DNA of 64,000 nucleotides, taken from the NCBI RefSeq assembly GCF_018128245.1, contig NZ_CP072378.1:124001-188000 (forward strand), in the 5' to 3' direction. Origin of the DNA: Leptotrichia sp. oral taxon 221 (GTDB taxonomy: Bacteria > Fusobacteriota > Fusobacteriia > Fusobacteriales > Leptotrichiaceae). Below are positions 24,916 to 50,956 of this stretch, piece after piece (positions within the stretch are counted from its first letter, which is position 1; each line of letters begins with the position of its first letter). Both the position numbers and the translations under genes were made by a program. Below the pieces are notes generated by a model that saw only the letters and a program-made list of their open reading frames with translations, was not told the origin of the DNA and did not search any database.

Positions 24916-24943
24916 TTGACAAATCAAAAAATCGAGGTAATAT
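24916..24943 (+). promoter_or_regulatory. Promoter of the pdu half of the microcompartment locus
   Basis: -35 TTGACA (24916-24921), 16-nt spacer, -10 TAATAT (24938-24943). The spacer ends ATCGAGG, so ATCGAGGTAA overlaps the -10. The same 10-mer in the same position occurs in the promoter at 33291-33318 before the shell gene. A shared regulator or an unusual promoter class is possible. Confidence 0.65.
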
Positions 24944-25017
24944 TTATATAGAAACTATAGATATATTTACAATGGGGTAAGCATATTTAATTTAAAAAAT
25001 TTCAAAAGAATAAAGGC

Positions 25018-25078
25018 GAGCAAAGAGGCTTAAAGATAGAAAACAGGTTATACAAATTGTATAAATGTTATTTTTTTT
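25018..25078 (+). promoter_or_regulatory. Leader attenuator, possible EutV (ANTAR) target
   Basis: A terminator-like hairpin AACA..TTATACA/TGTATAA.TGTT (25042-25069) is followed by ATTTTTTTT, well upstream of the first coding gene. Just before it, AGC AAAGAG GCT (25019-25030) can form a hairpin whose hexaloop has A at position 1 and G at position 4, the pattern bound by ANTAR antiterminators such as EutV. The stem is only 3-4 bp and a second clean hairpin was not found, so the EutV assignment is tentative. The terminator-like part is more secure. Confidence 0.45.
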
Positions 25079-25206
25079 AAGTGTCTTTTTTTATTTTGTA
25101 CTTGAACTCATTTAAAATCGGCTAATGAAATTGAGCAAATCTTGGGTTTAGGTAGATAGTTTTTAGATTAAATTAGTTGAAATCATTGGATGAGGAGATG
25201 ATTGTA

Positions 25207-25896
25207 ATGGTAACGGAGTTTGTAGGAACTAACAGATTAGGGGATACAATTGGGTTAGTTATTGCCAATATTGATTCGCAATTGAAAGAGAAAATGAATA
25301 TTGGTACTAGATACAATTCGATTGGGATTGTTGGTGCTAGAACAGGAGCTGGACCACATATTTTTGCGGCAGATGAGGCTGTGAAATCGACTAATTCAGA
25401 GATTTTATCAATTGAACTACCGAGAGACACTAAAGGTGGAGGAGGACATGGTTCGTTAATAATTTTTGGTGCTGATGATGTGTCTGATGTGAGAAAAGCT
25501 GTGGAAATTTGTTTAGCTGATTTGGAAAGAACATTTGGTGATGTTTATGGAAATGATGCGGGACATTTGGAATTTCAATATTCGGCTAGAGCTAGTCAGG
25601 CTTTGGTTAAAGGATTGGGAGCAGAAAAAGGTAAGGCTTTTGGGATAACAGTAGCCAGTCCAGCAGCAATTGGTGTAATTTTAGCAGATACAGCAGTGAA
25701 AGCCGCCGCCGTTGAAGTGAGAGCGTATTCTTCACCTGGTCACGGAACAAGTTACAGTAATGAAGTAATTTTGGGAATAAGTGGAGATTCAGGAGCTGTT
25801 AAACAAGCGATTATTTCGGCTAGAGAAGTTGGAATTGAACTTTTGGCAGCGATGGGAGATAGACCAGAAAGTACTACGAAACCATATATTTTGTGA
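25207..25896 (+). CDS. pduB: Microcompartment shell protein PduB (short form)
   Basis: A 229-residue trimeric (BMC-T) shell protein with two BMC domains. Near-diagnostic PduB segments are TEFVGTNRLGDTIGLVIAN, GARTGAGPHIFAADEAVK and SIELPRDTKGGGGHGSLI. The start at 25207 is chosen because GAGGAG lies 9 nt upstream; an upstream TTG start would add only 10 residues. The protein therefore matches the short PduB-prime form and lacks the roughly 37-residue extension of Salmonella PduB that links shell to cargo. First gene of the locus. Confidence 0.92.
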   Translation: MVTEFVGTNRLGDTIGLVIANIDSQLKEKMNIGTRYNSIGIVGARTGAGPHIFAADEAVKSTNSEILSIELPRDTKGGGGHGSLIIFGADDVSDVRKAVEICLADLERTFGDVYGNDAGHLEFQYSARASQALVKGLGAEKGKAFGITVASPAAIGVILADTAVKAAAVEVRAYSSPGHGTSYSNEVILGISGDSGAVKQAIISAREVGIELLAAMGDRPESTTKPYIL

Positions 25897-25975
25897 TGAA
25901 ATGAGAATTTAAGGGCAAAAAAGTAAAAAAATTGGTGATTTTGGAAGCCCTTAAATATGCGTAGGAGGAAATTGT

Positions 25976-27637
25976 ATGAAATCAAAAAGATTTGAGGCTT
26001 TGAGAAATAGACCGATAAATAAAGATGGATTTGTATTAGAGTGGGAAGAAGTAGGATTTATTGCGATGAACAGTTCGCAAGACCCGAAACCAAGTATAAA
26101 AATTGAAGGTGGGAAAATTGTTGAGTTAGATGGTAAAAAGAGAGAGGAATTCGATTCGATTGATACTTTTATAGCGAATTATGGTATTAACATTGAAAAG
26201 ACGAAAGAAGTAATGGCGATGGATTCTAAGAAAATAGCAAACATGCTTTGTGATCCTAATGTTTCAAGAAAGGAATTGGTTCAATTGACGACTGCTATGA
26301 CGCCTGCAAAAGCGGTTCAAGTTTTGGGGTATATGAATGTCGTTGAGATGATGATGGCGATGCAAAAAATGCGTGCTAGAAAGACACCGATGAATCAATG
26401 TCACGTTACTAATATAAAGGATAATCCAGCACAAATTGCAGCAGATGGAGCAGAAGCAGCATTGAGAGGATTTCCTGAACAAGAAACTACGGTAGGAATT
26501 GCAAGATATGCACCATTTAATGCGTTGAGTTTGTTAATTGGTTCGCAAGTTGGTCGTGGTGGAGTTTTGACTCAATGTTCGTTGGAAGAAGCGACTGAAT
26601 TGGCGTTGGGAATGAGAGGATTGACTTGTTATGCAGAAACAATTTCGGTGTATGGGACAGAAGATGTATTTACTGATGGAGATGACACGCCTTGGTCAAA
26701 AGGATTTTTAGCATCAGCATATGCGTCGAGAGGTTTAAAAATGCGTTTTACATCAGGAACTGGTTCAGAAGTGCAAATGGGTTATGCTGAAGGTAAATCA
26801 ATGTTGTATTTGGAAGCTAGATGTTTGTATATTACGAAGGGAGCTGGAGTTCAAGGAATACAAAATGGTTCAGTAAGTTGTATTGGTATTCCGTCAGCTG
26901 TACCAGGTGGAATTAGAGCCGTTTTAGCAGAAAACCTATTGGCAGCAATGTTAGATTTGGAATGTGCTTCTAGTAATGACCAAACTTTCACTCATTCAGA
27001 TTTGAGAAGATCAGTTAGATCGTTGATGCAAATGGCACCAGGAACTGATTTTATCTGCTCAGGATACAGTGCAACTCCAAACTACGATAATATGTTTGCT
27101 GGATCAAACTGGGATGCGGAAGATTTTGATGACTGGAATGTAATTCAAAGAGATTTGAAGATTGACGCGGGATTGAGACCTGTTTTAGAAGAAAATGTTG
27201 TGGCGGCTAGAAATAAAGCGGCTAGGGTTTTGCAAGCGGTATTTAAAGAATTAGGATTGCCTGAAATTACTGATGAAGAAGTTACTGCAGCGACTTATGC
27301 TAATGGAAGTAAAGATATGCCACCGAGAAATGTAGTTGAAGATTTGAAGGGTGCTGAAGATATGATGAAACGTGGAATTACAGGTATTGATGTAGTTAAG
27401 GCACTTTACAGATCAGGTTACAAAGAAGAAGCACAAAAGATATTGAATATGTTGAAACAAAGGGTAGCTGGGGATTATTTGCATACTTCGGCAGTAGTTG
27501 ATAAGGATTTCAATGTAATTAGTGCGGTAAACGATGTAAATGACTATGCAGGACCAGGAACAGGATATCAAATGAGCGATGAAAGATGGGATGAAATTAA
27601 AAAAATTCCAGCGGCTATAGATCCAAGTAAAATATAA
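25976..27637 (+). CDS. pduC: B12-dependent propanediol/glycerol dehydratase, large subunit
   Basis: A 553-residue alpha subunit that binds adenosylcobalamin and converts 1,2-propanediol to propionaldehyde (glycerol may also be used). The family start KRFEALRNRPINKDGFV, the barrel segments ARYAPFNALSLLIGSQ and SGTGSEVQMGYAEGKSMLYLEARC, and the C-terminal NDYAGPGTGY are all present. Ribosome site AGGAGG 7 nt before ATG. Followed after 25 nt by the medium subunit. Together with PduD and PduE it forms the heterohexameric enzyme inside the microcompartment. Confidence 0.97.
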   Translation: MKSKRFEALRNRPINKDGFVLEWEEVGFIAMNSSQDPKPSIKIEGGKIVELDGKKREEFDSIDTFIANYGINIEKTKEVMAMDSKKIANMLCDPNVSRKELVQLTTAMTPAKAVQVLGYMNVVEMMMAMQKMRARKTPMNQCHVTNIKDNPAQIAADGAEAALRGFPEQETTVGIARYAPFNALSLLIGSQVGRGGVLTQCSLEEATELALGMRGLTCYAETISVYGTEDVFTDGDDTPWSKGFLASAYASRGLKMRFTSGTGSEVQMGYAEGKSMLYLEARCLYITKGAGVQGIQNGSVSCIGIPSAVPGGIRAVLAENLLAAMLDLECASSNDQTFTHSDLRRSVRSLMQMAPGTDFICSGYSATPNYDNMFAGSNWDAEDFDDWNVIQRDLKIDAGLRPVLEENVVAARNKAARVLQAVFKELGLPEITDEEVTAATYANGSKDMPPRNVVEDLKGAEDMMKRGITGIDVVKALYRSGYKEEAQKILNMLKQRVAGDYLHTSAVVDKDFNVISAVNDVNDYAGPGTGYQMSDERWDEIKKIPAAIDPSKI

Positions 27638-27662
27638 TTTATTGGTTTAGGAGGGTAAGACC

Positions 27663-28355
27663 ATGAACATTAGTGATCAAGAATTGAAAGTATTGATAAA
27701 TAAGGTGTTACAGGAAATAGAAGATAAGAAGAATGGAAAATGTTCTTCGAAAGAATGTAAGATAGAAAGTAAAAATGTGGAAGATCCAGCAGTTCACGAA
27801 GCAGAATTGAATCGATTGGTTTTGACAGATATTGGTGAAGCGAAAAAAGGATCATCTTCAGATGAAGTTGTAATCGGAGTTGCACCAGCTTTTGGGATTT
27901 ATCAAAAGGAATCGATAACGAAAGTGCCACATTACAAGATTATTAGGGAATTGGTGGCAGGAATTGAAGAAGAAGGCTTAAAAGCTAGATTTGTTCGGAT
28001 TTTGAGAACATCAGATGTTTCGATTTTGGCGAATGATGCGGCTAAATTAAGTGGTTCAAAAATTGGAATTGGGATTCAATCGAAAGGGACAACCGTTATT
28101 CATCAGGCTGATTTACCGCCTTTGAGTAATTTGGAATTGTTTCCTCAATGTCCGTTGCTTGATTTGGAAACTTATAGAGCGATTGGTAAGAATGCAGCAA
28201 AATATGCGAAAGGTGAAGTACCTAATCCGGTTCCAGTGAAAAATGATCAAATGGTAAGACCGAGATTTCAGGCGTTGGCAGCAATTTTGCATATAAAAGA
28301 AACAGAGCATGTAATTCATCAGGCAAAACCACGAGAATTAGAAGCGAAATATTAG
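27663..28355 (+). CDS. pduD: Propanediol dehydratase, medium subunit
   Basis: A 230-residue beta subunit. The first 20 residues ([20 protein letters not shown]) form a short amphipathic helix of the type that targets cargo into microcompartments, followed by a linker and the cobalamin-binding-side domain with [10 protein letters not shown] and [20 protein letters not shown]. Ribosome site AGGAGGG. The small subunit follows directly. Confidence 0.96.
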
Positions 28356-28370
28356 ATGGAGGTCAGAATT

Positions 28371-28865
28371 ATGAACCAACAAACATTAGAACAATTAGTT
28401 AAAGAAGTATTGGAAAGTATAGAAAATCAAAAGAAATCTTCTAAAAATGGGACAAAAGTGGATGCTTCTCAATATCCCTTGGGTAAAAATAGGAAAGATT
28501 TGTTGAGAACGCCGACTAATAAGACTTTGGACGACATTACACTTGAAAGTGTTATGGATGGAACAATTACGATAGATGATGTGAAGATAACTCCAGAAGT
28601 TCTAGAATTGCAGGCACAGGTGGCTGAATCAGCGGGAAGACCAACTTTGGCAAGAAATTTTAGAAGAGCAGCAGAATTAACAAAAATACCAGATGCGAGA
28701 ATTTTGGAAATATATGATGCATTGAGACCGTTTAGATCAACAAAATCTGAATTGTTGGATATCGCTAGTGAAATTGAGAGTAAATATGATGCAAAAGTAA
28801 ATGCGGCTTTTATTCGAGAGGCAGCTGAAGTTTATGAAAAGAGAAAGAAATTGAGAGTAGATTAG
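28371..28865 (+). CDS. pduE: Propanediol dehydratase, small subunit
   Basis: A 164-residue gamma subunit. The N-terminal EQLVKEVLESIENQ looks like another encapsulation helix. The core has YPLGKNRKDLLRTPTNK and a C-terminal helical region with LRPFRSTKSELLDIA. The start at 28371 is preferred to ATG at 28356 because GGAGGT lies between them, 8 nt before the later ATG. Completes the dehydratase. Confidence 0.95.
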   Translation: MNQQTLEQLVKEVLESIENQKKSSKNGTKVDASQYPLGKNRKDLLRTPTNKTLDDITLESVMDGTITIDDVKITPEVLELQAQVAESAGRPTLARNFRRAAELTKIPDARILEIYDALRPFRSTKSELLDIASEIESKYDAKVNAAFIREAAEVYEKRKKLRVD

Positions 28866-28889
28866 TATTTATTAATAAGAGGAGCAGTT

Positions 28890-30722
28890 ATGAGATATGT
28901 TGTAGGAATAGATATTGGGAATTCAACAACAGAAGGGGCATTGGCTAGTATAGGTGATGATGAAAAAGTAATATTTTTAGCGAGTGCCATTGTGAGTACA
29001 ACTGGAATAAAAGGGACTTCGCAAAATAAATACGGTATACACGGTGTTATCAATCAATTGTTGAAAAAGGCAAATTTAACAGCAAAAGATATTGATTTAA
29101 TTAGGATAAATGAGGCGGCACCTGTAATTGGCGATGTAGCAATGGAAACAATAACAGAAACAATAATAACTGAGTCTACAATGATTGGACATAATCCAAA
29201 AACGCCGAGTGGAATTGGATTGTGTTCTGGAAAAACTGTGGATTTTAAGGATATTTTAAGTCCAAATTTTGAGGATAACGGGGATGTAATTGTTATTGTT
29301 TCAAAGGAATATGATTTTGAAGATGTTGCAAATACGTTTAATGAGGCAAATAGAAAAGGTGTTAAGATAAAAGGTGCAATTTTACAGAAGGATGATGCAG
29401 TTTTGGTGCAAAATCGATTGAATTTTAGGATTCCAATAATTGATGAAGTTGAAATGATTGAAAAAATTCCTTTGGGTGTGGAATGTGGCGTGGAAGTCGC
29501 TGAGCAAGGGAAGGTTATCGAGGAATTATCGAATCCTTATGGAATTGCGAGTATATTTAATCTAACGCCTGAGGAAACAAAAAAGGTAGTTCCAATTTCA
29601 CGAGCTTTAATGGGAAATCGATCAGCAGTAGTAATTAAGACGCCAGAAGGAGATGTGAAGGAAAGAACGATTCCAGCTGGAAAAATAATTATTAACGGAG
29701 ATGGAAAAGAAATTTTTGTGAATATTGAAGATGGTGCTGAGAAAATTATGCAGACAATTTCTAAAATTAAGAAGATTGAGGATATTAGAGGTGAAGCTGG
29801 AACAAATGTAGGTGGAATGCTTGAAAAGGTTCGACAAACAATGGCAAATCTTACGAAAAAGAAAATTTCAGATATTTGTATTCAAGATTTGTTGGCGGTT
29901 GATACTTTTAGTCCAGTGAAAGTGAAAGGTGGCTTGGCGAATGAGTTTTCGATGGAAAATGCAGTTGGAATTGCATCGATGGTTAAGTCGGATAGATTGC
30001 AGATGACAATTATTGCTGAGGAATTGGAACGAGAATTGGGGATAAAAGTTGAGATTGGTGGAGTTGAGGCTGATATGGCGATTCTAGGGTCATTGACAAC
30101 ACCAGGGACTACGCTTCCTTTAGCGATTGTAGATATGGGAGCAGGGTCTACAGATGCTTCGATTATGGATAAAAGTGGAAATATTCGTTCAGTGCATTTG
30201 GCTGGAGCTGGAAATATGGTTACGATGTTGATAAATGAAGAATTGGGACTTGAGGACACGAGTTTGGCAGAGGAAATAAAAAAATATCCATTGGCGAAAG
30301 TGGAAAGTCTGTTTCATATACGGCATGAAGACGGGACTGTTCAATTTTTTGAAGAACCGTTACCACCTGAGATTTTTTCGAGGGTTATTGTCTTGAAGCC
30401 AGAAGGAATGTACGCTATTCCAATTGAGAAATCTTTGGAAAAAATCAGAGCAACCAGAAGAAGTGCAAAAAAAAGAATTTTTGTGGAAAATACAATTAGA
30501 GCATTAAATTCAGTGAGTTTGACAGGGAATATTCGAGATATTCAGTTTGTGATTTTGGTTGGAGGATCCGCTTTAGATTTCGAAGTGCCAGAATTTGTTA
30601 CAGATAAATTGTCACAATATTCAATTGTCGCTGGAAGAGGAAATATTAGAAGCACGGAAGGGCCTAGAAATGCTGTGGCTACTGGATTGGTTCTCGATTT
30701 AGTGAGAAATAGTGGTGATTAA
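28890..30722 (+). CDS. pduG: Diol dehydratase reactivase, large subunit
   Basis: A 610-residue actin/Hsp70-like ATPase that swaps damaged cobalamin out of the dehydratase. ATP-binding motifs are VVGIDIGNSTTEGALA at the N-terminus, VDMGAGSTDASI near residue 414, and VILVGGSALDFEVPEF near the C-terminus. Length is normal. Ribosome site GAGGAG. The small subunit overlaps its end by 11 nt. Confidence 0.96.
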   Translation: MRYVVGIDIGNSTTEGALASIGDDEKVIFLASAIVSTTGIKGTSQNKYGIHGVINQLLKKANLTAKDIDLIRINEAAPVIGDVAMETITETIITESTMIGHNPKTPSGIGLCSGKTVDFKDILSPNFEDNGDVIVIVSKEYDFEDVANTFNEANRKGVKIKGAILQKDDAVLVQNRLNFRIPIIDEVEMIEKIPLGVECGVEVAEQGKVIEELSNPYGIASIFNLTPEETKKVVPISRALMGNRSAVVIKTPEGDVKERTIPAGKIIINGDGKEIFVNIEDGAEKIMQTISKIKKIEDIRGEAGTNVGGMLEKVRQTMANLTKKKISDICIQDLLAVDTFSPVKVKGGLANEFSMENAVGIASMVKSDRLQMTIIAEELERELGIKVEIGGVEADMAILGSLTTPGTTLPLAIVDMGAGSTDASIMDKSGNIRSVHLAGAGNMVTMLINEELGLEDTSLAEEIKKYPLAKVESLFHIRHEDGTVQFFEEPLPPEIFSRVIVLKPEGMYAIPIEKSLEKIRATRRSAKKRIFVENTIRALNSVSLTGNIRDIQFVILVGGSALDFEVPEFVTDKLSQYSIVAGRGNIRSTEGPRNAVATGLVLDLVRNSGD

Positions 30723-31092
30723 ATTGGCTAGAGAATTTCCAAATATAAAAATAGTAACGGTGCAAAAAAATATAGGGATAGCGAAAGAAATATCATATGG
30801 GATTGAAGAGGAGCAAATACCGTATGTGCTGGAAACTGTGTATGATTTAGATGAAAAAAATGTTGTGGAAAAGGCCTATGAGGAAGCTACCAAATCTAAA
30901 TTGTCCATAGGAATTGCTATTTGTGAGAGTAAAGCAATTTTTCATTTTTCAAGATTGAAGGTAGAGGAACCATTGTTTGTTATAAATAATGTTGAAGATA
31001 CGGAGAAAGAAGAATTGAGAGTTTACGGTAGTAATATCGCTAGAATTGTGAAGGGAATTCCCCTAAAGAGAACATTACTTAATTCATTGTAA
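30712..31092 (+). CDS. pduH: Diol dehydratase reactivase, small subunit
   Basis: A 126-residue protein resembling dehydratase beta-subunit folds, with EEEQIPYVLE and a C-terminal NIARIVKGIPLK. It partners PduG. The start is a GTG at 30712 or 30715 within the end of pduG, so translation is probably coupled; no separate ribosome site is clear. Confidence 0.88.
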   Translation: MVIKLAREFPNIKIVTVQKNIGIAKEISYGIEEEQIPYVLETVYDLDEKNVVEKAYEEATKSKLSIGIAICESKAIFHFSRLKVEEPLFVINNVEDTEKEELRVYGSNIARIVKGIPLKRTLLNSL

Positions 31093-31118
31093 GTATAGTA
31101 ATTAAAGAGGAATGAAAA

Positions 31119-31622
31119 ATGGATAACTTTGAAAAAGAAAAAATATATGACTTAATCAAAAAAGAATTAAAAAAATATATAGAAAATGAAGAAAAAATAG
31201 CTAGTAAAAAGAATTATGAAGATGTGAATCTTGAATTAGCAGAAAAATTTGTGAAAGAAGCATTAAAGTATGCAAAAGAAAAATCGTTGAATTTAAGCGT
31301 ATCGGTTGTCGATAAAGGTGGAAATTTAGTACTTTTTAAGAGAACGGATGGAGCGATTATTGCAAGTATAGATGTTTCAATGAAAAAGGCATACACGGCA
31401 TTACTTTTAAATAGTCCGACCTCTAAAGTAGATTTAGTTGAATTTCCAGGATTGGATAGGATTTTTAAAGAAAAACTTGTCACTTTTGGTGGAGGTTATC
31501 CAATAGTGTATGAAGGTAGATTAATAGGAGCGTTGGGAGTTAGTGGAGGGAGTTCGGTAGACGACGATGAAATAGCAAGAAAGACCGTAGAGAGTATCGT
31601 TGAAGGACTTAGTTGTTACTAA
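31119..31622 (+). CDS. GlcG/HbpS-family protein (PduO C-terminal-domain-like)
   Basis: A 167-residue protein. An N-terminal amphipathic helix (EKIYDLIKKELKKYI) resembles cargo-targeting tails. The rest is a GlcG/HbpS (DUF336) domain with LSVSVVDKGGNLVLFKRTDGA, ASIDVSMKKAYTA and the C-terminal GALGVSGGSSVDDDEIA. In Salmonella PduO this domain is fused to the cobalamin adenosyltransferase and binds heme; here it stands alone, the adenosyltransferase role being taken by EutT further downstream. Probably a microcompartment-associated cofactor-binding protein. Confidence 0.82.
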   Translation: MDNFEKEKIYDLIKKELKKYIENEEKIASKKNYEDVNLELAEKFVKEALKYAKEKSLNLSVSVVDKGGNLVLFKRTDGAIIASIDVSMKKAYTALLLNSPTSKVDLVEFPGLDRIFKEKLVTFGGGYPIVYEGRLIGALGVSGGSSVDDDEIARKTVESIVEGLSCY

Positions 31623-31738: not shown

Positions 31739-31756
31739 ATGAAGAAAGGTTTGGTT

Positions 31757-33154
31757 ATGGATAGAAAAAATATTGAAAATATAGTAAAAAAGGTTTTAGA
31801 AAAATTAGAAACAGAACAAAAAACAGCCAAAACAGAAGGATTAGGATTAGGAGTTTGCAGTAATATGGAAATTGCTATCGAAAAGGCTTCAAGTGCTCAA
31901 AAACATTATGAAAAATATAGTTTGAATCAAAGAGAAAAATTGATTAATCATTTGAGAAGAGAGTTGACAAATTTTGTGGAAGAGATTTCGGAAATGACGG
32001 TTAATGAGACTGGAATGGGGAAAGTGAAGGATAAAATTAAAACAAATTTGTTGGCGATTGAGAAAACTCCAGGGGTTGAAGATTTGTCGACACAGGCTTT
32101 TACTGGTGATAATGGATTGACACTCATTGAATTGTCAGCATTTGGAGTGGTTGGAAGTGTTACTCCAGTTACGAATCCGACTGAAACTATAATAAATAAT
32201 ACGATCAGTGCTTTGGCTGCTGGAAATTCGATTGTTTTTTCGCCACATCCGAATGCTTTGAAAGTGTCAAAATACTTGGTACGAGTGATTAATGAGATTA
32301 TTGAGAATTTGAAGGATTATCCTAAAAATTTGGTGACAATTTCGAAGGCTTCTGAAAAAAATGATGTTGAAGAGTTGTTTAACCATGTAGATGTGGATTT
32401 GTTGGTTGTGACAGGTGGAACAGAGATTGTAAATAAGGCTTTGAGAAGTGGGAAAAAGGTCGTTGGAGCAGGAGCTGGTAATCCGCCAGTTATAGTTGAT
32501 GAATCAGCGAATATTGTAAAAGCAGCAAAGGATATTGTTAGTGGAGCTTCATTTGATAACAATTTGTTATGCGTGTCAGAAAAATCGGTGTTAGTGATTG
32601 ATGACGTGACTGATTATTTGACATTTTGTATGCAAAAGGAAGGCGCAATTCAGATTGAGAATACTAGTGACATTGAAAAATTGCAAAACTGTATTTTGAA
32701 GGATGGAAAGCCAAATGAGAATTATGTTGGAAAAAGTCCAGCTGTGATTTTGAAAAATGCGGGAATACAATTTGAGGGAAATCCAAAATTGATAATTGTG
32801 GAAACTGATATTTTGCATCCGTTTGTGCAGGAGGAATTGTTGATGCCAGTAGTTCCTGTTGTGCGCCAAAAGGATTTTGATACAGCGTTAAAAAATGCGA
32901 TTCAAGTGGAAGGAAAGCGAAATAATACAGCGATTATCCATTCTCAAAATGTTTCAAGATTAAGTGAAGCAGCCAAAAAAATAAAAACGACGATTTTTGT
33001 GAAAAACGCTCCGTCATATGTTGGATTAGGATTTGAAGGAGAAGGATACGTTGGATTTACGATTGCTGGAAGAACAGGAGAAGGAATTGTGAGTGCGAAG
33101 GATTTTGCAAGACGTAGAAGATGTGTTTTGAGTGGAAGTTTTTCGATAAGATAA
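31757..33154 (+). CDS. pduP: CoA-acylating propionaldehyde dehydrogenase
   Basis: A 465-residue aldehyde dehydrogenase that turns propionaldehyde plus CoA and NAD into propionyl-CoA. An N-terminal encapsulation helix (RKNIENIVKKVLEKLE) precedes the enzyme core. The catalytic Cys is in SFDNNLLCVSEKS, and the substrate region NPTETIINNTISALAAGNS is typical of PduP/EutE. The start at 31757 is chosen for the AAAGG at 8 nt; an earlier ATG at 31739 has none. The locus has a second acylating dehydrogenase, EutE. Confidence 0.93.
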   Translation: MDRKNIENIVKKVLEKLETEQKTAKTEGLGLGVCSNMEIAIEKASSAQKHYEKYSLNQREKLINHLRRELTNFVEEISEMTVNETGMGKVKDKIKTNLLAIEKTPGVEDLSTQAFTGDNGLTLIELSAFGVVGSVTPVTNPTETIINNTISALAAGNSIVFSPHPNALKVSKYLVRVINEIIENLKDYPKNLVTISKASEKNDVEELFNHVDVDLLVVTGGTEIVNKALRSGKKVVGAGAGNPPVIVDESANIVKAAKDIVSGASFDNNLLCVSEKSVLVIDDVTDYLTFCMQKEGAIQIENTSDIEKLQNCILKDGKPNENYVGKSPAVILKNAGIQFEGNPKLIIVETDILHPFVQEELLMPVVPVVRQKDFDTALKNAIQVEGKRNNTAIIHSQNVSRLSEAAKKIKTTIFVKNAPSYVGLGFEGEGYVGFTIAGRTGEGIVSAKDFARRRRCVLSGSFSIR

Positions 33155-33290: not shown

Positions 33291-33318
33291 TTGATATAAT
33301 TAAATATCGAGGTAAAAT
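33291..33318 (+). promoter_or_regulatory. Internal promoter before the shell genes
   Basis: -35 TTGATA (33291-33296), 16-nt spacer, -10 TAAAAT (33313-33318). The spacer ends ATCGAGG exactly as in the promoter at 24916, and the hexamer spacing is identical. It would allow separate, strong expression of shell proteins. Confidence 0.6.
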
Positions 33319-33353
33319 ATAACTGTGACAAAAATATAATCATAACAAAAAAA

Positions 33354-33458: not shown

Positions 33459-33749
33459 ATGGCAACTTTAAATGCGTTAGGAATGATTGAAACTAGAGGA
33501 TTAGTAGGAGCGATTGAAGCAGCAGATGCGATGGTAAAAGCAGCAAATGTAACTTTAGTTGGAAAAGAACACATTGGTGGAGGATTAGTAACTGTAATGG
33601 TTAGAGGAGACGTTGGAGCTGTAAAATCAGCAACAGATGCAGGAGCAGCAGCAGCAGAAAGAGTAGGAGAATTAATTTCTGTACACGTAATTCCAAGACC
33701 ACATGATGAAATCGAAGGAATTTTACCAAAAGTTCCAACAGCTGAATAA
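33459..33749 (+). CDS. eutM: Hexameric microcompartment shell protein PduA/EutM, copy 1
   Basis: A 96-residue single BMC-domain protein that tiles the shell facets. [20 protein letters not shown] and [10 protein letters not shown] are family hallmarks. Ribosome site AGGAGGAA. It is nearly identical to the product at 35469 (one Arg/Lys change). Whether to call it PduA or EutM cannot be settled from sequence in a mixed locus. Confidence 0.95.
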
Positions 33750-37351: not shown

Positions 37352-37367
37352 ATAGGGTGTGATAAAT

Positions 37368-38819: not shown

Positions 38820-38831
38820 GCGGTGATGTGT

Positions 38832-41294: not shown

Positions 41295-41386
41295 AATTAA
41301 TTTATAAATTTGGAAGTAATAAACGATAAGAAAAATTAAAATGAAAATTTTATAGATTGAGTTTTTAATTTAAAGGAAAGATGAAG

Positions 41387-43375: not shown

Positions 43376-44806
43376 ATGACTGAAGAGATATTGAGCGTAG
43401 GAATAGATATTGGAACATCTACATTACAACTTATATTTTCTAAAATTTATATAGAAAATAGAGGTTCATCTTTTACTGTTCCTCAAATAAAAATAATTGG
43501 AAAAGAAGTAATTTATAGAAGTGAAATCTACGAAACTCCATTAATATCGGAAACAGTGATAGATACGAAAAATGTAAAAAAAATAATTGAAAATGAATAT
43601 AAAAAAGCAAATATTAAATATGAAGATGTATCAACAGGAGCTGTTATTATAACAGGAGATACAGCTAGAAAAGAAAATGCGAAAGAAGTTTTGGAAACAT
43701 TAAGCGGAATGGCTGGAGATTTTGTTGTAGCTACGGCTGGACCTGATTTAGAAAGTATTATTGCAGGAAAAGGTTCTGGAGCATATACATTTTCTGAAGA
43801 AAAAAACACAAGTATTGTAAATTTTGATGTAGGTGGTGGTACGACAAATAATGTAATTTTTAATAGAGGTGAAGTTGAAGATACGACTTGCCTTGATATT
43901 GGTGGAAGACTTATAAAATTTGATGAAAATCGTAAAATTAAATATATTTTTGAGAAAATGTTTGAGATTGCGAAAGATGTGGATGTGAGCATCAAATTAG
44001 GCGATTATGCAGATGAAGCCAAATTTAGAAAAATTGCAAAAAGAATGGGACAATTGATATTTGAAAGTGTTGGGATTTTTCCAAAGACAGAGTTGTACAG
44101 AAAAATTGTGACAGATAAAGATTTTAGAAAAAATATTAAAGATATAAAATACTATTCATTTACAGGTGGAGTAGCTGATTTTATATACGGAAGAAAAGAA
44201 GAAGATAAATTCAAATATAATGACATCGGGGTCATTTTAGGAGAAGAAATCTTGAAAATAATTGAAGAAAAACAAATTAATTTGAAACAATTGAGTGAAA
44301 CAATTGGTGCGACTGTTGTTGGAGCTGGAAATCATACGACTGAAATAAGTGGAAGTACGATAACTTATTCAGAAGGAATTTTCCCAATTAAAAATATCCC
44401 TGTATTAAAATTAACCGAAGAAGATGAAAGTGTAAAAGGAATCGAGTTAGAAGAGATTATTAAGAGAAAATTAGAGTGGTTCAATTTGAAAAAAGAGGAT
44501 AAAAATGTTGCGATTGGGTTAAGAGGAAAGCATAATATGGACTATTTGGAAATAATGGAGTTGGCAAAAGTTTTTTCTAACATTGCAAAAAGTGAGATAA
44601 ATTCTAAATATCCAATAATAATTATTGTTGAAAATGATATGGCAAAAGTTTTAGGACAGTGTATGAAATTGGAATTAGCTGGTAGAGATATAATTTGTAT
44701 CGATAGCGTAAAGGTGCGTGACGGAGATTATATCGATATTGGAGAGCCTTTAGGAAGTGGAAATGTTTTACCCGTTGTAGTAAAAACATTAGTCTTTAGT
44801 TATTAA
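43376..44806 (+). CDS. eutA: Ethanolamine ammonia-lyase reactivase EutA
   Basis: A 476-residue actin-like ATPase that exchanges inactive cobalamin in ethanolamine ammonia-lyase. [16 protein letters not shown] at the N-terminus, [14 protein letters not shown] near 145-158 and the [17 protein letters not shown] block are typical. Directly upstream of its client eutBC. Ribosome site weak (AGAAAAGGTACGAAA). Confidence 0.95.
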
Positions 44807-44842
44807 GATTGAAAAATTAATATTTTTTGAGAGGTGGCAGTA

Positions 44843-46207
44843 ATGATATTAAAAACAAGATTATTTGGACATAGTTACGAATTTAAAAGTGTAAAAGAAG
44901 TTCTAGCAAAAGCGAATGAATATAAATCAGGAGATGAACTAGCGGGAGTGGCAGCAGCAACTGCTGAAGAAAGAGTAGCAGCAAAAGCTGTCTTAGCAGA
45001 ATTAAAATTATCAGATTTAAGAAATAATCCAGTTATACCATATGAAGAAGATGAAGTTACAAGAATCATTCAAGACGATGTAAATGAAAAAATTTATGAT
45101 GAAATAAAAAATTGGACAGTTAGTGAATTTAGAGAATGGTTATTAGATTTGAAAACTACAGGGGATAAAATTAAAAGAGTTAGTAAAGGTTTGACAAGTG
45201 AAATGGTTGCAGCTGTTGCTAAATTAATGAGTAATATGGATTTAGTTGTGGCAGCGAAAAAAATTAGAGTTAAAAAATTCTGTAACACAGAAATTGGTGG
45301 AGAAGGAATTTTGGCAGCAAGATTACAACCAAATCATACAACAGATGATCCAGATGGAATTATGTTGTCAGTTTATGAAGGATTGAGCTACGGAGTTGGA
45401 GATGCATTGTTAGGATTGAACCCAGTAGATGACAGTGTTGATAGCGTTATGAGAGTTTTACAAAGATTCCATGAAATTAAAACAAAATGGGATATACCAA
45501 CACAAATCTGTGTATTGGCACACGTAACAACACAAATGGAAGCTGTAAGAAGAGGAGCACCAACAGATTTGATTTTCCAAAGTATTGCAGGTTCGCAAAA
45601 AGGAAATGAAGCGTTTGGAATTGATGGAAAAATGATTGAAGAAGCTAGACAATTAGCTTTGAAACATGGAACAGCAACAGGACCAAATGTAATGTATTTT
45701 GAAACAGGACAAGGTTCAGAATTATCATCAGAAGCACATCACGGAGCAGACCAAGTAACATTGGAAGCTAGATGTTATGGATTCGCAAAAAGATTTGATC
45801 CATTTATTGTAAATACAGTAGTTGGATTCATTGGACCAGAATATTTGTATGACAGTAAACAAGTTATAAGAGCTGGTTTAGAAGATCACTTTATGGGTAA
45901 ATTGACAGGAATCTCAATGGGAGTTGACGCTTGTTATACAAACCACATGAAAGCGGATCAAAACGATATTGAAAACTTAGAAATGTTATTATCAATTGCA
46001 GGAGTTAACTATTTCATGGCAATTCCAGCAGGAGACGATATAATGTTAAACTATCAAACAACATCTTATCATGATGATGCAGCATTAAGAAACTTAACTA
46101 ATGCAAGACCTATAAAACCATTTGAAGAATGGTTAGAAAAAATGGGAATAATGAAAGATGGTAAACTTACAGAAAGAGCCGGAGATGCTTCAATTTTCTT
46201 AAAATAG
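44843..46207 (+). CDS. eutB: Ethanolamine ammonia-lyase, large subunit
   Basis: A 454-residue TIM-barrel subunit of the adenosylcobalamin enzyme that splits ethanolamine into acetaldehyde and ammonia. Family segments: ELAGVAAATAEERVAAK near the N-terminus, YEGLSYGVGDALLGLNPV, VLAHVTTQMEAVRRGAP and DDIMLNYQTTSYHD. Start at 44843 follows GAGGTGG at 5 nt; an upstream GTG at 44834 overlaps that ribosome site and is unlikely. Confidence 0.97.
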   Translation: MILKTRLFGHSYEFKSVKEVLAKANEYKSGDELAGVAAATAEERVAAKAVLAELKLSDLRNNPVIPYEEDEVTRIIQDDVNEKIYDEIKNWTVSEFREWLLDLKTTGDKIKRVSKGLTSEMVAAVAKLMSNMDLVVAAKKIRVKKFCNTEIGGEGILAARLQPNHTTDDPDGIMLSVYEGLSYGVGDALLGLNPVDDSVDSVMRVLQRFHEIKTKWDIPTQICVLAHVTTQMEAVRRGAPTDLIFQSIAGSQKGNEAFGIDGKMIEEARQLALKHGTATGPNVMYFETGQGSELSSEAHHGADQVTLEARCYGFAKRFDPFIVNTVVGFIGPEYLYDSKQVIRAGLEDHFMGKLTGISMGVDACYTNHMKADQNDIENLEMLLSIAGVNYFMAIPAGDDIMLNYQTTSYHDDAALRNLTNARPIKPFEEWLEKMGIMKDGKLTERAGDASIFLK

Positions 46208-46219
46208 GGAGGAAAAACA

Positions 46220-47110
46220 ATGTTATCAGATAAAGAGTTAATGGAATTAATAGAAAAAGTGGTTAAAGAAACAGGAAATATGTCAGAAAGTAAAGTAGCA
46301 GAAGTAGCCGCTAAAGTTTCTGAAAAAGTTGGTAGCGATATTGAAGATGGAGAGTTGAAAGATATAGGAAAAATCAATATAAAAGACCAATTGTTAGTTG
46401 ACAATCCAGAAGATAGAGACGAATATATGAAATTAAAACAAAGAACGTCAGCAAGATTAGGAATTGGAAGAGCTGGAACTAGATTTAAAACAGATATTTT
46501 GTTAAGATTTAGAGCTGACCATGCTGCTGCTCAAGATGCTGTGTTTAACGATGTTCCAAAAGAATTTTTAGATGAAATAGGATTGTTTGAAGTGACTACA
46601 CAATGTGAAAGTCGTGACCAATACATAACAAGACCTGATTTAGGAAGAAAAATTAGTGATGAAGGTATAAAAATAATAAATGAAAAATGCAAAAAAAATC
46701 CGAAAGTACAAATTATTGTTTCAGATGGATTGAGTTCTACAGCAATCGAAGCTAATGCTAAAAACATTTTACCAGCATTGGAAAATGGATTAAAAGGATA
46801 CGGAATTGATACAGGAACTACATTCTTTGTAAAATATGGAAGAGTTGGAGCAGGAGACCACGTAGCAGAATTAGTAAATGCCGAAGTTGTATGTATTTTG
46901 ATCGGGGAAAGACCTGGATTGACAACAGCTGAAAGTATGAGTGCTTATATTACTTACAAGGCATATGTGGGAATTCCAGAATCAAAGAGAACAGTTGTAT
47001 CAAATATTCATAGAGATGGGACACCTTCAGCAGAAGCAGGAGCTCACATTGCTACATTAATTAAGAAAATATTAGATGCTAAAGCGTCTGGACAAGATTT
47101 GAAATTATAA
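46220..47110 (+). CDS. eutC: Ethanolamine ammonia-lyase, small subunit
   Basis: A 296-residue subunit. An N-terminal helix pair (DKELMELIEKVVKET and a second) probably targets the enzyme into the compartment. The core contains TSARLGIGRAGTRFKTDILLRFRADHAAAQDAVF and IVSDGLSSTAIEANA, and near the end GERPGLTTAESMSAYITY. 12 nt after eutB; ribosome site AGGGAGGAA. Confidence 0.96.
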   Translation: MLSDKELMELIEKVVKETGNMSESKVAEVAAKVSEKVGSDIEDGELKDIGKINIKDQLLVDNPEDRDEYMKLKQRTSARLGIGRAGTRFKTDILLRFRADHAAAQDAVFNDVPKEFLDEIGLFEVTTQCESRDQYITRPDLGRKISDEGIKIINEKCKKNPKVQIIVSDGLSSTAIEANAKNILPALENGLKGYGIDTGTTFFVKYGRVGAGDHVAELVNAEVVCILIGERPGLTTAESMSAYITYKAYVGIPESKRTVVSNIHRDGTPSAEAGAHIATLIKKILDAKASGQDLKL

Positions 47111-47201: not shown

Positions 47202-47852
47202 ATGAAAGGCGATAGATTGAAAGCTAGTGTATTAGCTACGAGATTAATACCAAATGTAGACCGTGGAATGGCAAAAGAATTAGGATTGTCAGAAGGTCAT
47301 AGAAGTATTGCGATTTTAACAGCTGATTGCGATGATGTAACATATACAGCATTGGATGATGCGACTAAAAAAGCCGTTGTAGAAGTTGCTTATGCGAAAT
47401 CATTTTATGGTGGTGCTGCAAATGCAAATACCAAATTAGCAGGAGAAGTAATTGGAATTTTATCAGGACCAACTCCAGCTGAAGTAAAAAGTGGACTTGA
47501 CGCAGCAGTAGACTTTATCGAAAATGAAGCTGCATTTATAAGTGCAAATGATGATGATTCAATCGCATACTACGCTCATTGTATTTCAAGAACAGGAAGC
47601 TATTTGTCAGAAGCTTGTGGAATAAAAGAAGGAGAAGCAATCGCATATTTAATTGCACCGCCATTAGAAGCAATGTATGCTTTAGACATAGCACTTAAAT
47701 CAGCAGATGTTCAATTAGTAACATTCTACGGACCACCTTCAGAAACAAACTTTGGTGGAGGTCTATTAACTGGAAGCCAAGCCGCATGTCAAGCTGCATG
47801 TGAAGCATTCGCCGACGCAGTTAAATCGGTTGCAGAAAAACCATTAGATTAA
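47202..47852 (+). CDS. eutL: Microcompartment shell protein EutL
   Basis: A 216-residue BMC-T shell protein with two BMC domains and gated pores. LATRLIPNVDRGMAKELGL, HRSIAILTADCDDVTYTALD and FYGPPSETNFGGGLLTGSQ are diagnostic. Ribosome site AGGAGG. Together with PduB it gives the shell two different trimer types. Confidence 0.95.
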   Translation: MKGDRLKASVLATRLIPNVDRGMAKELGLSEGHRSIAILTADCDDVTYTALDDATKKAVVEVAYAKSFYGGAANANTKLAGEVIGILSGPTPAEVKSGLDAAVDFIENEAAFISANDDDSIAYYAHCISRTGSYLSEACGIKEGEAIAYLIAPPLEAMYALDIALKSADVQLVTFYGPPSETNFGGGLLTGSQAACQAACEAFADAVKSVAEKPLD

Positions 47853-47953: not shown

Positions 47954-48054
47954 ATTTTTCTATAAAACTGTGAAATTACGAAAAATTAGGAATTTTAAAA
48001 ATCAGAGTTTGAGAGCGGCGATTGAGTTCTCATAAAAAAACGGAGGGATTCAAA

Positions 48055-49188
48055 ATGGGTATAGATAAAATAATAATGTATATAATGGTAATATTCATGA
48101 TAATTGGTGGAATAGACAAATGTCTAGGAAATAAATTTGGTTACGGAGAAAAATTTGAAGAAGGAATAATGGCAATGGGATCTTTAGCCTTAGCAATGGT
48201 TGGGATAATAGCATTAGCACCAGTTTTGGGAGAAGTATTAAAACCAGTCGTAACACCTATATATAAAATGTTAGGTGCGGATCCTTCAATGTTTGCGACA
48301 ACTTTGTTAGCAACTGATATGGGTGGAACTCCACTTGCATTTAAATTGACAACAGATGTACAAGCTGCTAAATTTGCTTCATTTATTTTAGGATCAATGA
48401 TGGGACCAACAATAGTATTCACAATTCCAGTTGCATTAGGAATAATCGAAAAAGAAGATCGTCCATTTTTAGCAAAAGGAATTTTGGCAGGAATGACAAC
48501 TATACCAATAGGGTGTTTTTTTGGAGGAATTATAGCAGGAATGCCTGTAATAATGGTACTTAAAAACTTAATTCCAATAATTATATTTTCAATATTAATT
48601 TGTATAGGATTATGGAAAATACCAGAAAAAATGACAAAAGGATTTTCAATATTTGGACAAGCAGTTGTTATAATCATAACTTTAGGATTAGTTGTAGCAA
48701 TCATTCAAGCTTTAACACCTATAACAATAATACCAGGAATGGATTCAATATACACAGTTTATGATCAAGCAGCAAAAGAACTTAAAATGGGTGGAATTGA
48801 AACTATAGGTGCAATTGCAATTGTATTAGCAGGAGCATTCCCATTAGTTCATTTCATAACACAAGTATTCAAAAAACCGTTGACAGCGATAGGAAAAGGA
48901 CTTGGTATGAATGAATCTGGAGCAGCAGGGCTTGTTGCCACATTAGCAAATAATATTCCAATGTTTGGTATATTAAAAGATATGGATTCAAACGGAAAAG
49001 TAATGAATATTGCATTTGCAGTAAGTGGTGCTTTTGTATTCGGAGACCATTTAGGATTTGTAGCAGGTTACGCTAATGGAGCTTACAAAGACATGATGTT
49101 CCCAATGATAGTTGGAAAATTAGTGGCAGGAATAACAGCAATATTTGTAGCAAAAATGTTGTTTTGTAAAAAAGGAAAAAATGCATAA
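48055..49188 (+). CDS. eutH: Ethanolamine permease EutH
   Basis: A 377-residue integral membrane protein with about ten or eleven hydrophobic segments, matching EutH: MIIGGIDKCLGNKFGYGEKFEEGI at the start, LATDMGGTPLAFKLT and GDHLGFVAGYANGAYKDMM near the end. It brings ethanolamine into the cell. Start at 48055 is set by CGGAGGG; an upstream TTG at 48022 gives an unlikely hydrophilic extension. Confidence 0.94.
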   Translation: MGIDKIIMYIMVIFMIIGGIDKCLGNKFGYGEKFEEGIMAMGSLALAMVGIIALAPVLGEVLKPVVTPIYKMLGADPSMFATTLLATDMGGTPLAFKLTTDVQAAKFASFILGSMMGPTIVFTIPVALGIIEKEDRPFLAKGILAGMTTIPIGCFFGGIIAGMPVIMVLKNLIPIIIFSILICIGLWKIPEKMTKGFSIFGQAVVIIITLGLVVAIIQALTPITIIPGMDSIYTVYDQAAKELKMGGIETIGAIAIVLAGAFPLVHFITQVFKKPLTAIGKGLGMNESGAAGLVATLANNIPMFGILKDMDSNGKVMNIAFAVSGAFVFGDHLGFVAGYANGAYKDMMFPMIVGKLVAGITAIFVAKMLFCKKGKNA

Positions 49189-49241
49189 ATAATTAGTACA
49201 AATTAAAAAATTAAAATGTTCAGAAATTCGGAGGGATTCTT

Positions 49242-50375
49242 ATGTTTAAGAAAATGGCGATGGTGTTTTTGATAGCGATCTCTTTGAACGGATTAGCGGC
49301 TAATCTGGATGAAGGAAGATGGGTTCCTGAAAACAAAGAAATTTTATCAAAATTAATTGACGATAATAAAAATCAAGGAAATTATGTGGTATTCGATTGG
49401 GATTACACATCAATTTATCAAGATACACAAGAAAATTTATTTAGATATCAAATTGACAATTTGAAATTTGATATGACTCCAAAAGAGTTTGCTAAAGCGA
49501 TTAGAAAAGATATTCCTTTAGATAATTTTGCAAAAGGTTATGAAAATGCTAAAGGAGAAAAAATTAATATTACAAAAATTGGTAACGATTTAGATAAAAG
49601 ATATGCATTTTTGTATGAAAATTATATAAAAAATAAAAAGATGAGTTTGGATGAAATTAAGAAAACTGAAGAATTTAAAGATTTTAGAGGGAAATTAGCA
49701 TTTTTATATGAAGCGATAGGAGGAACTTTTTCACATGACATCGCCTATCCATGGGTATTATACTTATTCAACGGAATGACAAAAGAAGAAGTTCAAAAAT
49801 TGGCAAAAGAAGCTAATGATTATGGAATTGGAGATAAATTAGGTAAATATACAATTGAATCTAGCGATAAATTATTAGGTGAAGCTGGAAAAATAGTTTA
49901 TGAATACAAGAGTGGATTGAGAACACAACCTGAAATCGCAAATTTATTCCACGAATTTCAAAAAAATGGAATTGAAGTTTACATAGTTTCTGCATCTCTT
50001 GAAGATATCGTAAAAGTTTTTGCAAGTGATAAATCATACGGATACAATCTAAAACCAGAAAACGTGTACGGAATGAGATTGGAAATGAATAAAGATAAAT
50101 ATTTGTCTCAATATAAAAAAGGTTATCCACAAACTCAAACAAAAGGAAAAGTGGAAACAATAAATAAATTTTTAAAACCAAAACATGGAGGGAAAGACCC
50201 TATTTTAGTAGCAGGAGATAGTGGTGGAGACGAAAATATGCTTACAGAATACAAAGGAACTAAAGTTTTACTTCTTATGAAACGAAAAGGAAAATTGGAT
50301 GACGTTGCAAAAGATAAAAGAGCTTTAATTCAAAGAAGAAATGAACAAACAGGATTATTAGTTCCTGAAAATTAG
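49242..50375 (+). CDS. Secreted HAD phosphatase, phosphorylcholine/phosphoethanolamine phosphatase-like
   Basis: A 377-residue protein with an N-terminal signal peptide (hydrophobic residues about 6-18, ending LAAN) and a haloacid-dehalogenase fold. Motif I is VVFDWDYTSIY (DxDxT), motif II YIVSASLED, motif IV GDSGGDENML. This layout, with a large helical cap (about 60-220), resembles periplasmic phosphorylcholine phosphatases, which also act on phosphoethanolamine. Position directly between the ethanolamine permease and eutQ suggests that it frees ethanolamine from phosphoethanolamine outside the inner membrane. Substrate is inferred from context. Ribosome site CGGAGGG. Confidence 0.75.
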   Translation: MFKKMAMVFLIAISLNGLAANLDEGRWVPENKEILSKLIDDNKNQGNYVVFDWDYTSIYQDTQENLFRYQIDNLKFDMTPKEFAKAIRKDIPLDNFAKGYENAKGEKINITKIGNDLDKRYAFLYENYIKNKKMSLDEIKKTEEFKDFRGKLAFLYEAIGGTFSHDIAYPWVLYLFNGMTKEEVQKLAKEANDYGIGDKLGKYTIESSDKLLGEAGKIVYEYKSGLRTQPEIANLFHEFQKNGIEVYIVSASLEDIVKVFASDKSYGYNLKPENVYGMRLEMNKDKYLSQYKKGYPQTQTKGKVETINKFLKPKHGGKDPILVAGDSGGDENMLTEYKGTKVLLLMKRKGKLDDVAKDKRALIQRRNEQTGLLVPEN

Positions 50376-50445
50376 GAATGAGATAACCGATTATTATCAA
50401 AAGTAGATATATTCTCAATTTTGAGATAAGAGGAGAGATGACAAA

Positions 50446-50913
50446 ATGGGATTACAAGATTTAGATAGAGAAACTTTAGAAAAATTATTGAGAAAAGTAG
50501 TGGCAGAAGAATTAAGCAGAAAAGCTGGAGATAGTTTTGAAAAATATATGGACCCAAGCGGAGTTGGAGTTGTAAAAATACCAACTGTTAAACCAAAAAA
50601 ATTCGATACAGGAAATCCAAATGACAAAGTGTACTTAACTGATGTTTTTACAATTGATGAAAGCAAGAGATTGAGTTGCGGAGTAATGGAAATGGAAGAA
50701 TCAGCATTCGATTGGACGTTGAATTATGATGAAATTGATTATGTAATAGAAGGAACTTTAGAAATAATCGTAGATGGAAGAAAAGTTGTTGGAAATAAAG
50801 GTGAAGCAATTTTAATTCCTAAAGGTTCAAAAATTCAATTCAGCGCACCAAAATTTGCAAGATTTTTGTATGTGATTTATCCAGCTGATTGGCAAGAAAA
50901 ATTAGAAAAATAG
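50446..50913 (+). CDS. eutQ: EutQ, cupin-fold acetate kinase-like protein
   Basis: A 155-residue protein. The N-terminal ETLEKLLRKVVAEELSRK helix is a probable cargo-targeting tail; the cupin domain includes EIDYVIEGTLEIIVDGRKVVGNKGEAILIPKGSKIQF. EutQ from Salmonella has acetate kinase activity and supports compartment assembly. No other acyl kinase is in this locus, so EutQ may yield the ATP from acetyl- and propionyl-phosphate. Last gene before the terminator. Ribosome site AAGAGGAGAG. Confidence 0.92.
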   Translation: MGLQDLDRETLEKLLRKVVAEELSRKAGDSFEKYMDPSGVGVVKIPTVKPKKFDTGNPNDKVYLTDVFTIDESKRLSCGVMEMEESAFDWTLNYDEIDYVIEGTLEIIVDGRKVVGNKGEAILIPKGSKIQFSAPKFARFLYVIYPADWQEKLEK

Positions 50914-50924
50914 AATATTTTTAT

Positions 50925-50956
50925 AAGAGTAGAAAGTTTTTTCTGCTCTTTTTTTC
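50925..50956 (+). terminator. Terminator of the microcompartment locus
   Basis: Stem AAGAGTAGAA (50925-50934) / TTCTGCTCTT (50941-50950) with one T-G pair, then TTTTTT. It closes the 26-kb pdu-eut block. Confidence 0.8.

Follow-up and report, generated by a model that had tools for sequence, protein, structure and literature searches.

A pruned propanediol cassette before a complete ethanolamine locus in Leptotrichia sp. oral taxon 221: a probable shared shell-protein pool and a probable EutV-type switch before pdu

We analysed a window of 64,000 nucleotides from the genome of Leptotrichia sp. oral taxon 221 (contig NZ_CP072378.1, positions 124,001 to 188,000), in which genes for B12-dependent propanediol utilization (PDU) and ethanolamine utilization (EUT) form a single block of 26 kb (24916..50956). 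All genes of the block, from pduB to eutQ, lie on the + strand, as judged from open reading frames, translations and family profile matches. The block probably encodes a merged PDU/EUT metabolosome in which both pathways draw on a shared pool of shell proteins and, in this genome, the pdu genes stand behind a EutV switch. It represents a known type of gene fusion, here trimmed and rewired. New here is the evidence that the pdu half has apparently been pruned so as to need the eut shell, and that pdu has apparently been placed behind the EutV switch in this genome.

A bacterial microcompartment (BMC) locus that carries both a B12 diol dehydratase set and an ethanolamine ammonia-lyase set, as the window does, is a PDU/EUT fusion. 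This locus type was named for Listeria, a Propionibacterium, Streptococcus sanguinis and Sebaldella termitidis (Axen et al. 2014, PMC4207490), and a 2021 human microbiome survey noted fusions in Streptococcus and Listeria (PMC8156839). Since the type was already named with a Sebaldella example, the combination of pdu and eut is not itself new. The initial annotation of the window missed this published type and its representative in the same family; its view of the combination as unusual fell, while its argument from sharing and economy stood, carried by the one shell set, the Sebaldella layout and the cassette without generic parts. Within the open-licence literature we found the Sebaldella microcompartment in Axen et al. 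alone (PMC4207490), whose supplements may describe the locus more fully.

We compared the pdu half with nine stand-alone BMC-type pdu loci (G048, G056, G057, G058, G060, G062, G074, G075 and G090), which run pduBCDEGH, BMC-H, BMC-H, PduL, vertex, PduO-C, PduP. At least two BMC-H genes were present in 9/9 of these loci, and PduL, the vertex gene and an upstream alcohol dehydrogenase were each present in 8/9, the exception being G048, which is without those three and holds only a PduL fragment. The fused cassette (25177-33154) has pduB, C, D, E, G, H, O-C and P with the order kept, and no BMC-H, PduL, vertex or alcohol dehydrogenase gene, so that the window lacks a complete stand-alone PDU set with its own BMC-H, BMC-P, PduL and alcohol dehydrogenase beside pduBCDE. 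The comparison indicated that the fused cassette keeps the pathway-specific parts and is without the parts that the eut half supplies. That half holds a complete EUT2-type set (EutABC, EutE with a C-terminal end peptide, EutL, EutN, EutVW, EutH and EutQ), and Leptotrichia was described as carrying EUT2 (PMC8156839). For nine more pduC loci (G036, G037, G038, G041, G042, G044, G046 and one each in G074 and G090), the stretch read, which in some cases ended at a contig edge, contained neither pduB nor a BMC gene.

A second shell or enzyme set elsewhere in the genome, which the initial annotation had named as grounds against a shared compartment, was looked for in the organism's own assembly (G000; 2.08 Mb, 2 contigs, 99.86% complete), and none was found. 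All PF00936 BMC domains (8/8) lie inside the block, and the genome holds one PF03319 vertex protein, one PduC, one EutB and one PduL. A second compartment elsewhere in this genome was rejected on these counts. The single EutN vertex and single PduL of the annotation agree with them, and family matches confirm that two acylating dehydrogenases (PduP and EutE) and both trimers (PduB and EutL) have been kept. The merged locus has one alcohol dehydrogenase for both pathways. The claim of one adenosyltransferase is true of the locus only, since a PduO-type enzyme (PF01923) is encoded outside it at C1:1533913-1534410. The claim of one facet protein type is loose: besides two near-identical BMC-H proteins there are a short one (33777), which we take to be EutS/PduU-like, and a long-tailed one (34630).

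The most informative feature, overlooked in the initial annotation, lies in the leader of pduB. EutV recognizes the sequence AGCAANGRRGCUY, which overlaps a terminator (Ramesh et al. 2012, PMC3369931). The whole genome holds one exact match, at 25019-25031 in the pduB leader (P2), while the reversed pattern, used as a control, gave 0 matches in the same genome. When the leader was folded, the upstream hairpin P1 formed (24966-24981, loop AATGGG), and a long hairpin followed, with its 5' arm passing through P2 and a T-rich 3' side; none of 200 shuffles was equally stable (z -4.41). In dinucleotide shuffles of the leader P2 arose in 5/20000 and P1 together with P2 in 0/20000. No ANTAR protein other than EutV was found in G000, and PocR (PF10114) was found in none of G000, G023, G024, G026 and G005; it was found near pdu in G058, G060 and G074. 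Because the sole exact EutV site lies in the pduB leader over a predicted terminator, with EutV as sole ANTAR protein and with no PocR found, propanediol catabolism is probably under ethanolamine-sensing antitermination. The element resembles the published EutV dual-hairpin antiterminator (PMC3369931) in its 13-nt P2, its hexaloop with A1 and G4, its AC/GU closing pairs and its overlap with a terminator, and differs in its longer linker and its position before pdu rather than eut genes. No paper on EutV antitermination of a pdu operon or of propanediol genes was found in the open-licence literature.

The P1 12-mer TACAATGGGGTA is identical in the leaders of Leptotrichia G005 and L056, where it stands before the eut shell genes. 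A P1-like string occurred at most 170 nt upstream in 13 of 15 rows of P2 sites (one genome being included twice), in one case inside eutW. Our P1 alignment comprised nine distinct 16-mers, leaving out the P1 of G006/L056 (one genome, with only slight differences) and the P1-like string in eutW of G023. The A at loop position 1, the G at position 4 and the AC/GT closing pairs are kept in 9/9 forms; pairing held in 40/45 cells (88.9%) over the nine sequences, versus 77.1% in shuffles, and the covariation score was reached by 4/500 shuffles. A crude hexaloop scan gave 56 matches on the + strand and 15 on the - strand, with one close pair outside the locus, and was uninformative; the case rests on the published consensus. 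No cobalamin riboswitch was found in the window at Rfam gathering scores, where the sole Rfam matches were rRNA and tRNA.

A further promoter-like site lies in the 304-base gap between pduP and the first BMC-H gene (33155-33458). Only two exact copies of its 13-base core ATCGAGGTAANAT are present in the window, at 24931-24943 before pduB and at 33306-33318 in this gap; 0/100 shuffles had two copies, and at two mismatches there were 16 sites versus 7.06 expected. No identification of the core with a known operator was made. EutV control of this second leader was rejected, as it holds no P2 within two mismatches and no P1 pattern, and its fold was no better than that of shuffles (z 0.29; 120/200 at least as good). 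The second promoter, at 33291, may drive the shell and eut genes at a basal level or under separate control.

Several observations weigh against the shared pool and the EutV switch. That second promoter, being without an EutV element, may uncouple the eut half from EutV, so that full EutV dependence of this half is not implied. Dinucleotide shuffles gave about 0.06 expected P2 matches per 64 kb, roughly two per genome, and the match therefore counts by its place and not by its rarity. The pduB-leader hairpin was left unflagged by a consensus terminator scan, the terminator being known by folding only, and two-sided changes in the P1 pairs were no more numerous than in 201/500 shuffles. The P1-P2 linker measures 37 nt in the window, ~64-76 in Leptotrichia and 112-120 in Sebaldella, all beyond the tested range of Enterococcus faecalis, where linkers are 5-12 nt and lengthening to 14 nt hurt induction (PMC3369931). 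In Sebaldella P2 sites stand before the second BMC-H gene (3/3 genomes) and before eutA (3/3), with none before pduB in the DNA read from these three genomes; the Sebaldella sites are thus downstream of pdu, and that group does not share the rewiring. Finally, in Salmonella strains with two BMC systems the shells were mixed and the cargo stayed mostly apart (PMC12866334).

In the mechanism we propose, an eight-gene propanediol cassette (pduBCDEGH, the PduO-C-like gene and pduP) would have been set before a complete Leptotrichia-type eut locus. The cassette would supply the dehydratase, its reactivase, its own acylating dehydrogenase and its own trimer, and the eut half would supply facet hexamers, vertex, PduL and alcohol dehydrogenase for both pathways; since the cassette holds only substrate-specific parts, both pathways would use one shell-protein pool. 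Ethanolamine, the presumed signal, would activate EutW, and phosphorylated EutV would capture P1 and P2 in the nascent leader, relieving termination: the terminator would fail to form, and the polymerase would enter pdu and run on toward the shell and eut genes. The shared hexamers, the vertex and the two trimers would assemble one kind of shell. PduCDE would yield propionaldehyde and EutBC acetaldehyde, PduP and EutE would acylate these, and one PduL and one alcohol dehydrogenase would recycle CoA and NAD for both pathways. The pathway steps follow PDU and EUT biochemistry that is well established, the proposed sharing is read from gene content, and the proposed control from motif and fold. 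What the sequence itself gives is the gene content, the single copies, the synteny, the EutV-site match and the predicted hairpins; from these we infer that EutV binds, that transcription reads through, that ethanolamine is the inducing signal and that the cargo is co-encapsulated.

A fuller version, in which a dual-substrate metabolosome co-encapsulates both signature enzymes, redundant pdu core genes were deleted after the fusion and ethanolamine induces pdu by antitermination, is one that we advance tentatively, as a serious possibility short of an even chance. Such an arrangement, if true, would run opposite to Salmonella, where co-expressed pdu and eut shells reportedly gave faulty hybrid compartments and regulation is reported to be mutually exclusive (Sturms 2015, cited in PMC12866334 and PMC11086012). 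A shared shell pool, if true, would sort the parts into those that must remain with one pathway (trimer, aldehyde dehydrogenase, signature enzyme) and those open to common use (hexamer, vertex, PduL, alcohol dehydrogenase), and so offer a rule for designing engineered compartments. A transfer of the pdu genes to EutV control would likewise be a clear natural example of regulation rewired through an antiterminator.

The end peptides of the cargo proteins bear on whether one or two kinds of particle form. Short amphipathic-looking N-terminal segments were seen by eye on PduD, PduE, PduP, PduL, EutC and EutQ, and a C-terminal one on EutE; the start of the window's PduP, IENIVKKVLEKL, resembles the EutE tail, IEDIIKQVLDKI. 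Scored against 14 EutE tails, PduP starts reached 33.0-38.2 in fused loci (n=4) and 24.4-28.9 in stand-alone loci (n=9), and PduE starts 30.6-34.7 (n=4) and 21.8-28.0 (n=8, the PduE of G074p2 being left out), with no overlap for either protein. For PduD starts, fused loci showed no greater likeness to EutE tails than stand-alone loci did. This likeness lends weak support to a common shell, weak because the fused and the stand-alone sets are each one clade and the difference may be ancestry. If one shell-protein pool instead built two kinds of particle, with cargo sorted by encapsulation peptide and each particle housing one pathway, then both trimers and both aldehyde dehydrogenases would be kept, as they are, and the PduD result would be no surprise. 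We nevertheless consider this arrangement unlikely, as the PduP and PduE starts of fused loci lie above the stand-alone ones and there is a single PduL and a single alcohol dehydrogenase for both pathways.

The regulatory evidence separates two further alternatives from the shared pool behind a EutV switch. An ordinary fusion of the Listeria kind, with adjacent, independently regulated halves that each have their own compartment, would be in keeping with the two promoter-like sites of the window, and such fusions have been described, regulation in Listeria being argued to be independent because the pdu part there has PocR and the eut part a two-component system (PMC4207490). Separate regulators of that sort were not found in this genome, although they are a Listeria trait and not a requirement of the fusion type; together with the one vertex, the lack of a pdu-specific PduL and BMC-H set and the EutV element before pduB, this makes such a fusion very improbable here. 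The EutV leader might also be a relic, the pdu cassette having landed behind it and being driven or silenced otherwise, or hardly used; in favour of this are the linker outside the tested range and the twin element ATCGAGGTAANAT, which suggests another shared control. The exact P2, the kept P1 loop and closing pairs, the fold well below shuffles and the intact state of all pdu reading frames argue otherwise, and we regard a relic as quite improbable. Among known systems, the Listeria pdu-eut-cob cluster is like the window in its adjacent pdu and eut genes and its EutVW, and unlike it in its rearranged PDU1A and EUT2A, the PocR of its pdu part and its suggested independent regulation (PMC4207490, PMC7677406). 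In Levilactobacillus brevis ATCC 14869 the eut genes and the pdu genes alike are raised by ethanolamine given together with adenosylcobalamin (PMC11086012); unlike the window, it has two separate operons, its pdu shell genes are those expressed, and it retains a complete pdu operon.

We searched 98 Fusobacteriota genomes, a sample rather than every species. EutB was found in 35/98 and PduC in 20/98, with both in 14. The two lie at most 20 kb apart in three genomes (G000, G023 and G026), and in G024 the block is split over two contigs whose ends fit the same gene order; in the remaining 10/14 they are far apart or on separate contigs, and no neighbouring eut block was seen around pduC within the stretches read. 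Among 80 named loci pdu genes occurred in one (L022, a Sebaldella sp. MAG, equal to G023), several of the stretches being short and the window's own record possibly missing from the set. The comparison of gene order that the initial annotation had proposed revealed the same merged layout, with a single vertex, in Sebaldella: the window is collinear with G026 and G023, and with G024 across its two contig ends. Sebaldella differs in having no HAD gene in the locus (the window adds one), EutV sites after pdu, a first BMC-H gene that follows pduP without a promoter gap, and a satellite two-domain BMC protein elsewhere. Six Leptotrichia-group genomes (G004, G005, G006, G007, G012 and G014; G008 was not among the genomes read) share the eut half and its gene order, with no pdu genes in the stretches read, and the HAD gene is missing in G014 of the six. 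The Leptotrichia EUT2 locus carries the same P1/P2 leader, placed before the shell genes. In G002, which is closest to the window in the eut tree, pdu is absent and no eutVW was detected.

The concatenated pdu tree (2146 columns) joined the window with Sebaldella (support 1.0), and the concatenated eut tree (2812 columns) placed the window with G002 (0.998), beside Leptotrichia and with Sebaldella outside. Path lengths, summed by hand from the trees, were 0.52 (pdu) and 0.46 (eut) between the window and G023, and 0.25 and 0.21 between G023 and G026. The similar pdu/eut ratios fit a fusion that predates the split between the window and Sebaldella, with pdu presumably lost later in Leptotrichia and G002. 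Horizontal transfer is a conceivable alternative history.

A HAD protein lies between eutH and eutQ. Ravcheev and colleagues (PMC6620236) predicted this protein to be a third form of phosphate acetyltransferase, on the basis of its presence in fusobacterial eut clusters without PduL, and noted 28% identity to a phosphoethanolamine/phosphocholine phosphatase. HAD matches occurred in 26/98 genomes, with close homologues (at least 70% identity) in 13, and PduL lay within ~12 kb in 12 of these 13. The exception, G049, and the 85% complete G082, in which a 48% homologue lies near EutB and no PduL was found, still fit the older acetyltransferase pattern. The N-termini were hydrophobic and signal-peptide-like in 10/10 proteins read (by eye, with no predictor), which makes them ill suited to a lumen enzyme. 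The protein matches the phosphorylcholine phosphatase PchP (4as2, E 2.5e-19) and also 4gxt (E 3.5e-52), with motif I FDWDYTS; at a pair of neighbouring Glu residues in PchP, the window protein has Gln aligned with one of the two. The co-occurrence with PduL, the export-like start and the relation to PchP argue against the acetyltransferase (PMC6620236), and we read the protein as a putative exported phosphatase that would free ethanolamine (or choline), to be taken up by EutH. With two genomes excepted, this argues for a correction of the published functional prediction for fusobacterial eut loci.

Coordinates of all features are collected in Table 1. Each gene listed in the initial annotation was found, in the order given and on the + strand, and its block ends agree with a sigma-70-like -35 hexamer at 24916 and the terminator-like site at 50925-50950. 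Absent from its list were the HbpS/PduO-C-like gene (31119), EutP (34126), the TIGR02536-like gene (38823), the 112-aa protein (39791) and the HAD gene (49242).

Table 1. Features of the fused pdu/eut block, in window positions.
Feature	Position	Strand	Remarks
Promoter-like site of pduB leader	24916..24944	+	contains ATCGAGGTAATAT at 24931-24943; consensus match only
P1 hairpin TTTAC-AATGGG-GTAAG	24966..24981	+	A at loop position 1, G at 4, AC/GT closing pairs
P2, exact match to published EutV recognition sequence AGCAANGRRGCUY	25019..25031	+	
Predicted terminator hairpin	25022..25088	+	5' arm overlaps P2; T-rich DNA after; fold z -4.41
pduB, BMC-T trimer	25177..25896	+	TIGR04501/NF011944; start probably ATG 25207
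pduC, diol dehydratase large subunit	25976..27637	+	NF011979, 1017.7 bits
pduD, encapsulation-peptide-like N-terminus	27663..28355	+	
pduE, encapsulation-peptide-like N-terminus	28356..28865	+	
pduG, reactivase alpha	28890..30722	+	TIGR04491
pduH, reactivase beta	30712..31092	+	PF02288
PduO C-terminal-like (HbpS) protein	31119..31622	+	PF03928
pduP, CoA-acylating aldehyde dehydrogenase, N-terminal encapsulation peptide	31739..33154	+	NF011927
Second promoter-like site, ATCGAGGTAANAT in common with pduB promoter	33291..33318	+	
BMC-H copy 1	33459..33749	+	PF00936
Short BMC-H	33777..34124	+	PF00936
EutP/PduV GTPase	34126..34551	+	PF10662
BMC-H with acidic linker and SAP-like C-terminus	34630..35436	+	
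BMC-H copy 2	35469..35759	+	PF00936; 282/291 bases as copy 1
eutE, acetylating aldehyde dehydrogenase, C-terminal encapsulation peptide	35843..37351	+	TIGR02518
eutT, adenosyltransferase	37359..38141	+	NF011595 below its cut-off; PF01923
PduL-type phosphotransacylase	38157..38819	+	model BMC_EutD_Gpos; sole one in genome
TIGR02536-like eut protein	38823..39458	+	75.0 bits, below cut-off
EutN-type vertex pentamer	39476..39724	+	sole one in genome
112-aa conserved protein	39791..40129	+	no Pfam match; conserved in relatives
Iron-type alcohol dehydrogenase	40176..41294	+	
eutV, receiver and ANTAR	41381..41965	+	only ANTAR protein found in genome
eutW, sensor kinase (GAF_PdtaS, HisKA_2)	41958..43358	+	
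eutA	43376..44806	+	
eutB	44834..46207	+	
eutC	46220..47110	+	
eutL, BMC-T trimer	47202..47852	+	
eutH, ethanolamine permease family	48022..49188	+	
HAD phosphatase-like protein, signal-peptide-like N-terminus, phosphorylcholine phosphatase relative	49242..50375	+	
eutQ	50446..50913	+	PF06249
Intrinsic-terminator-like site closing block	50925..50950	+	

The near identity of the BMC-H copies at 33459-33749 and 35469-35759 suggests a recent duplication or gene conversion. The BMC-H protein at 34630-35436 has a long acidic linker, and its conserved SAP-like tail gave a SAP match with E 8e-4 on the isolated tail, below the Pfam cut-off; Sebaldella and Leptotrichia retain this long-tailed protein, G060 and G061 lack it, and a contact with nucleic acid at the shell is possible. 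A short ITPxA...IxYE-like motif is common to the 112-aa protein, the EutT N-terminus and the TIGR02536 C-terminus, and the TIGR02536 profile also matches EutT residues 6-46. In G026 cob genes lie beside the fused locus: cobalamin/haem biosynthesis-like genes, named by eye, precede it (L001 2342-8913), and none were seen just upstream in the window. There, a protein with an EndoU nuclease domain (PF14436) is encoded at 22658-23793, directly followed by a 143-aa open reading frame with no Pfam match, and the two look like a toxin-immunity pair.

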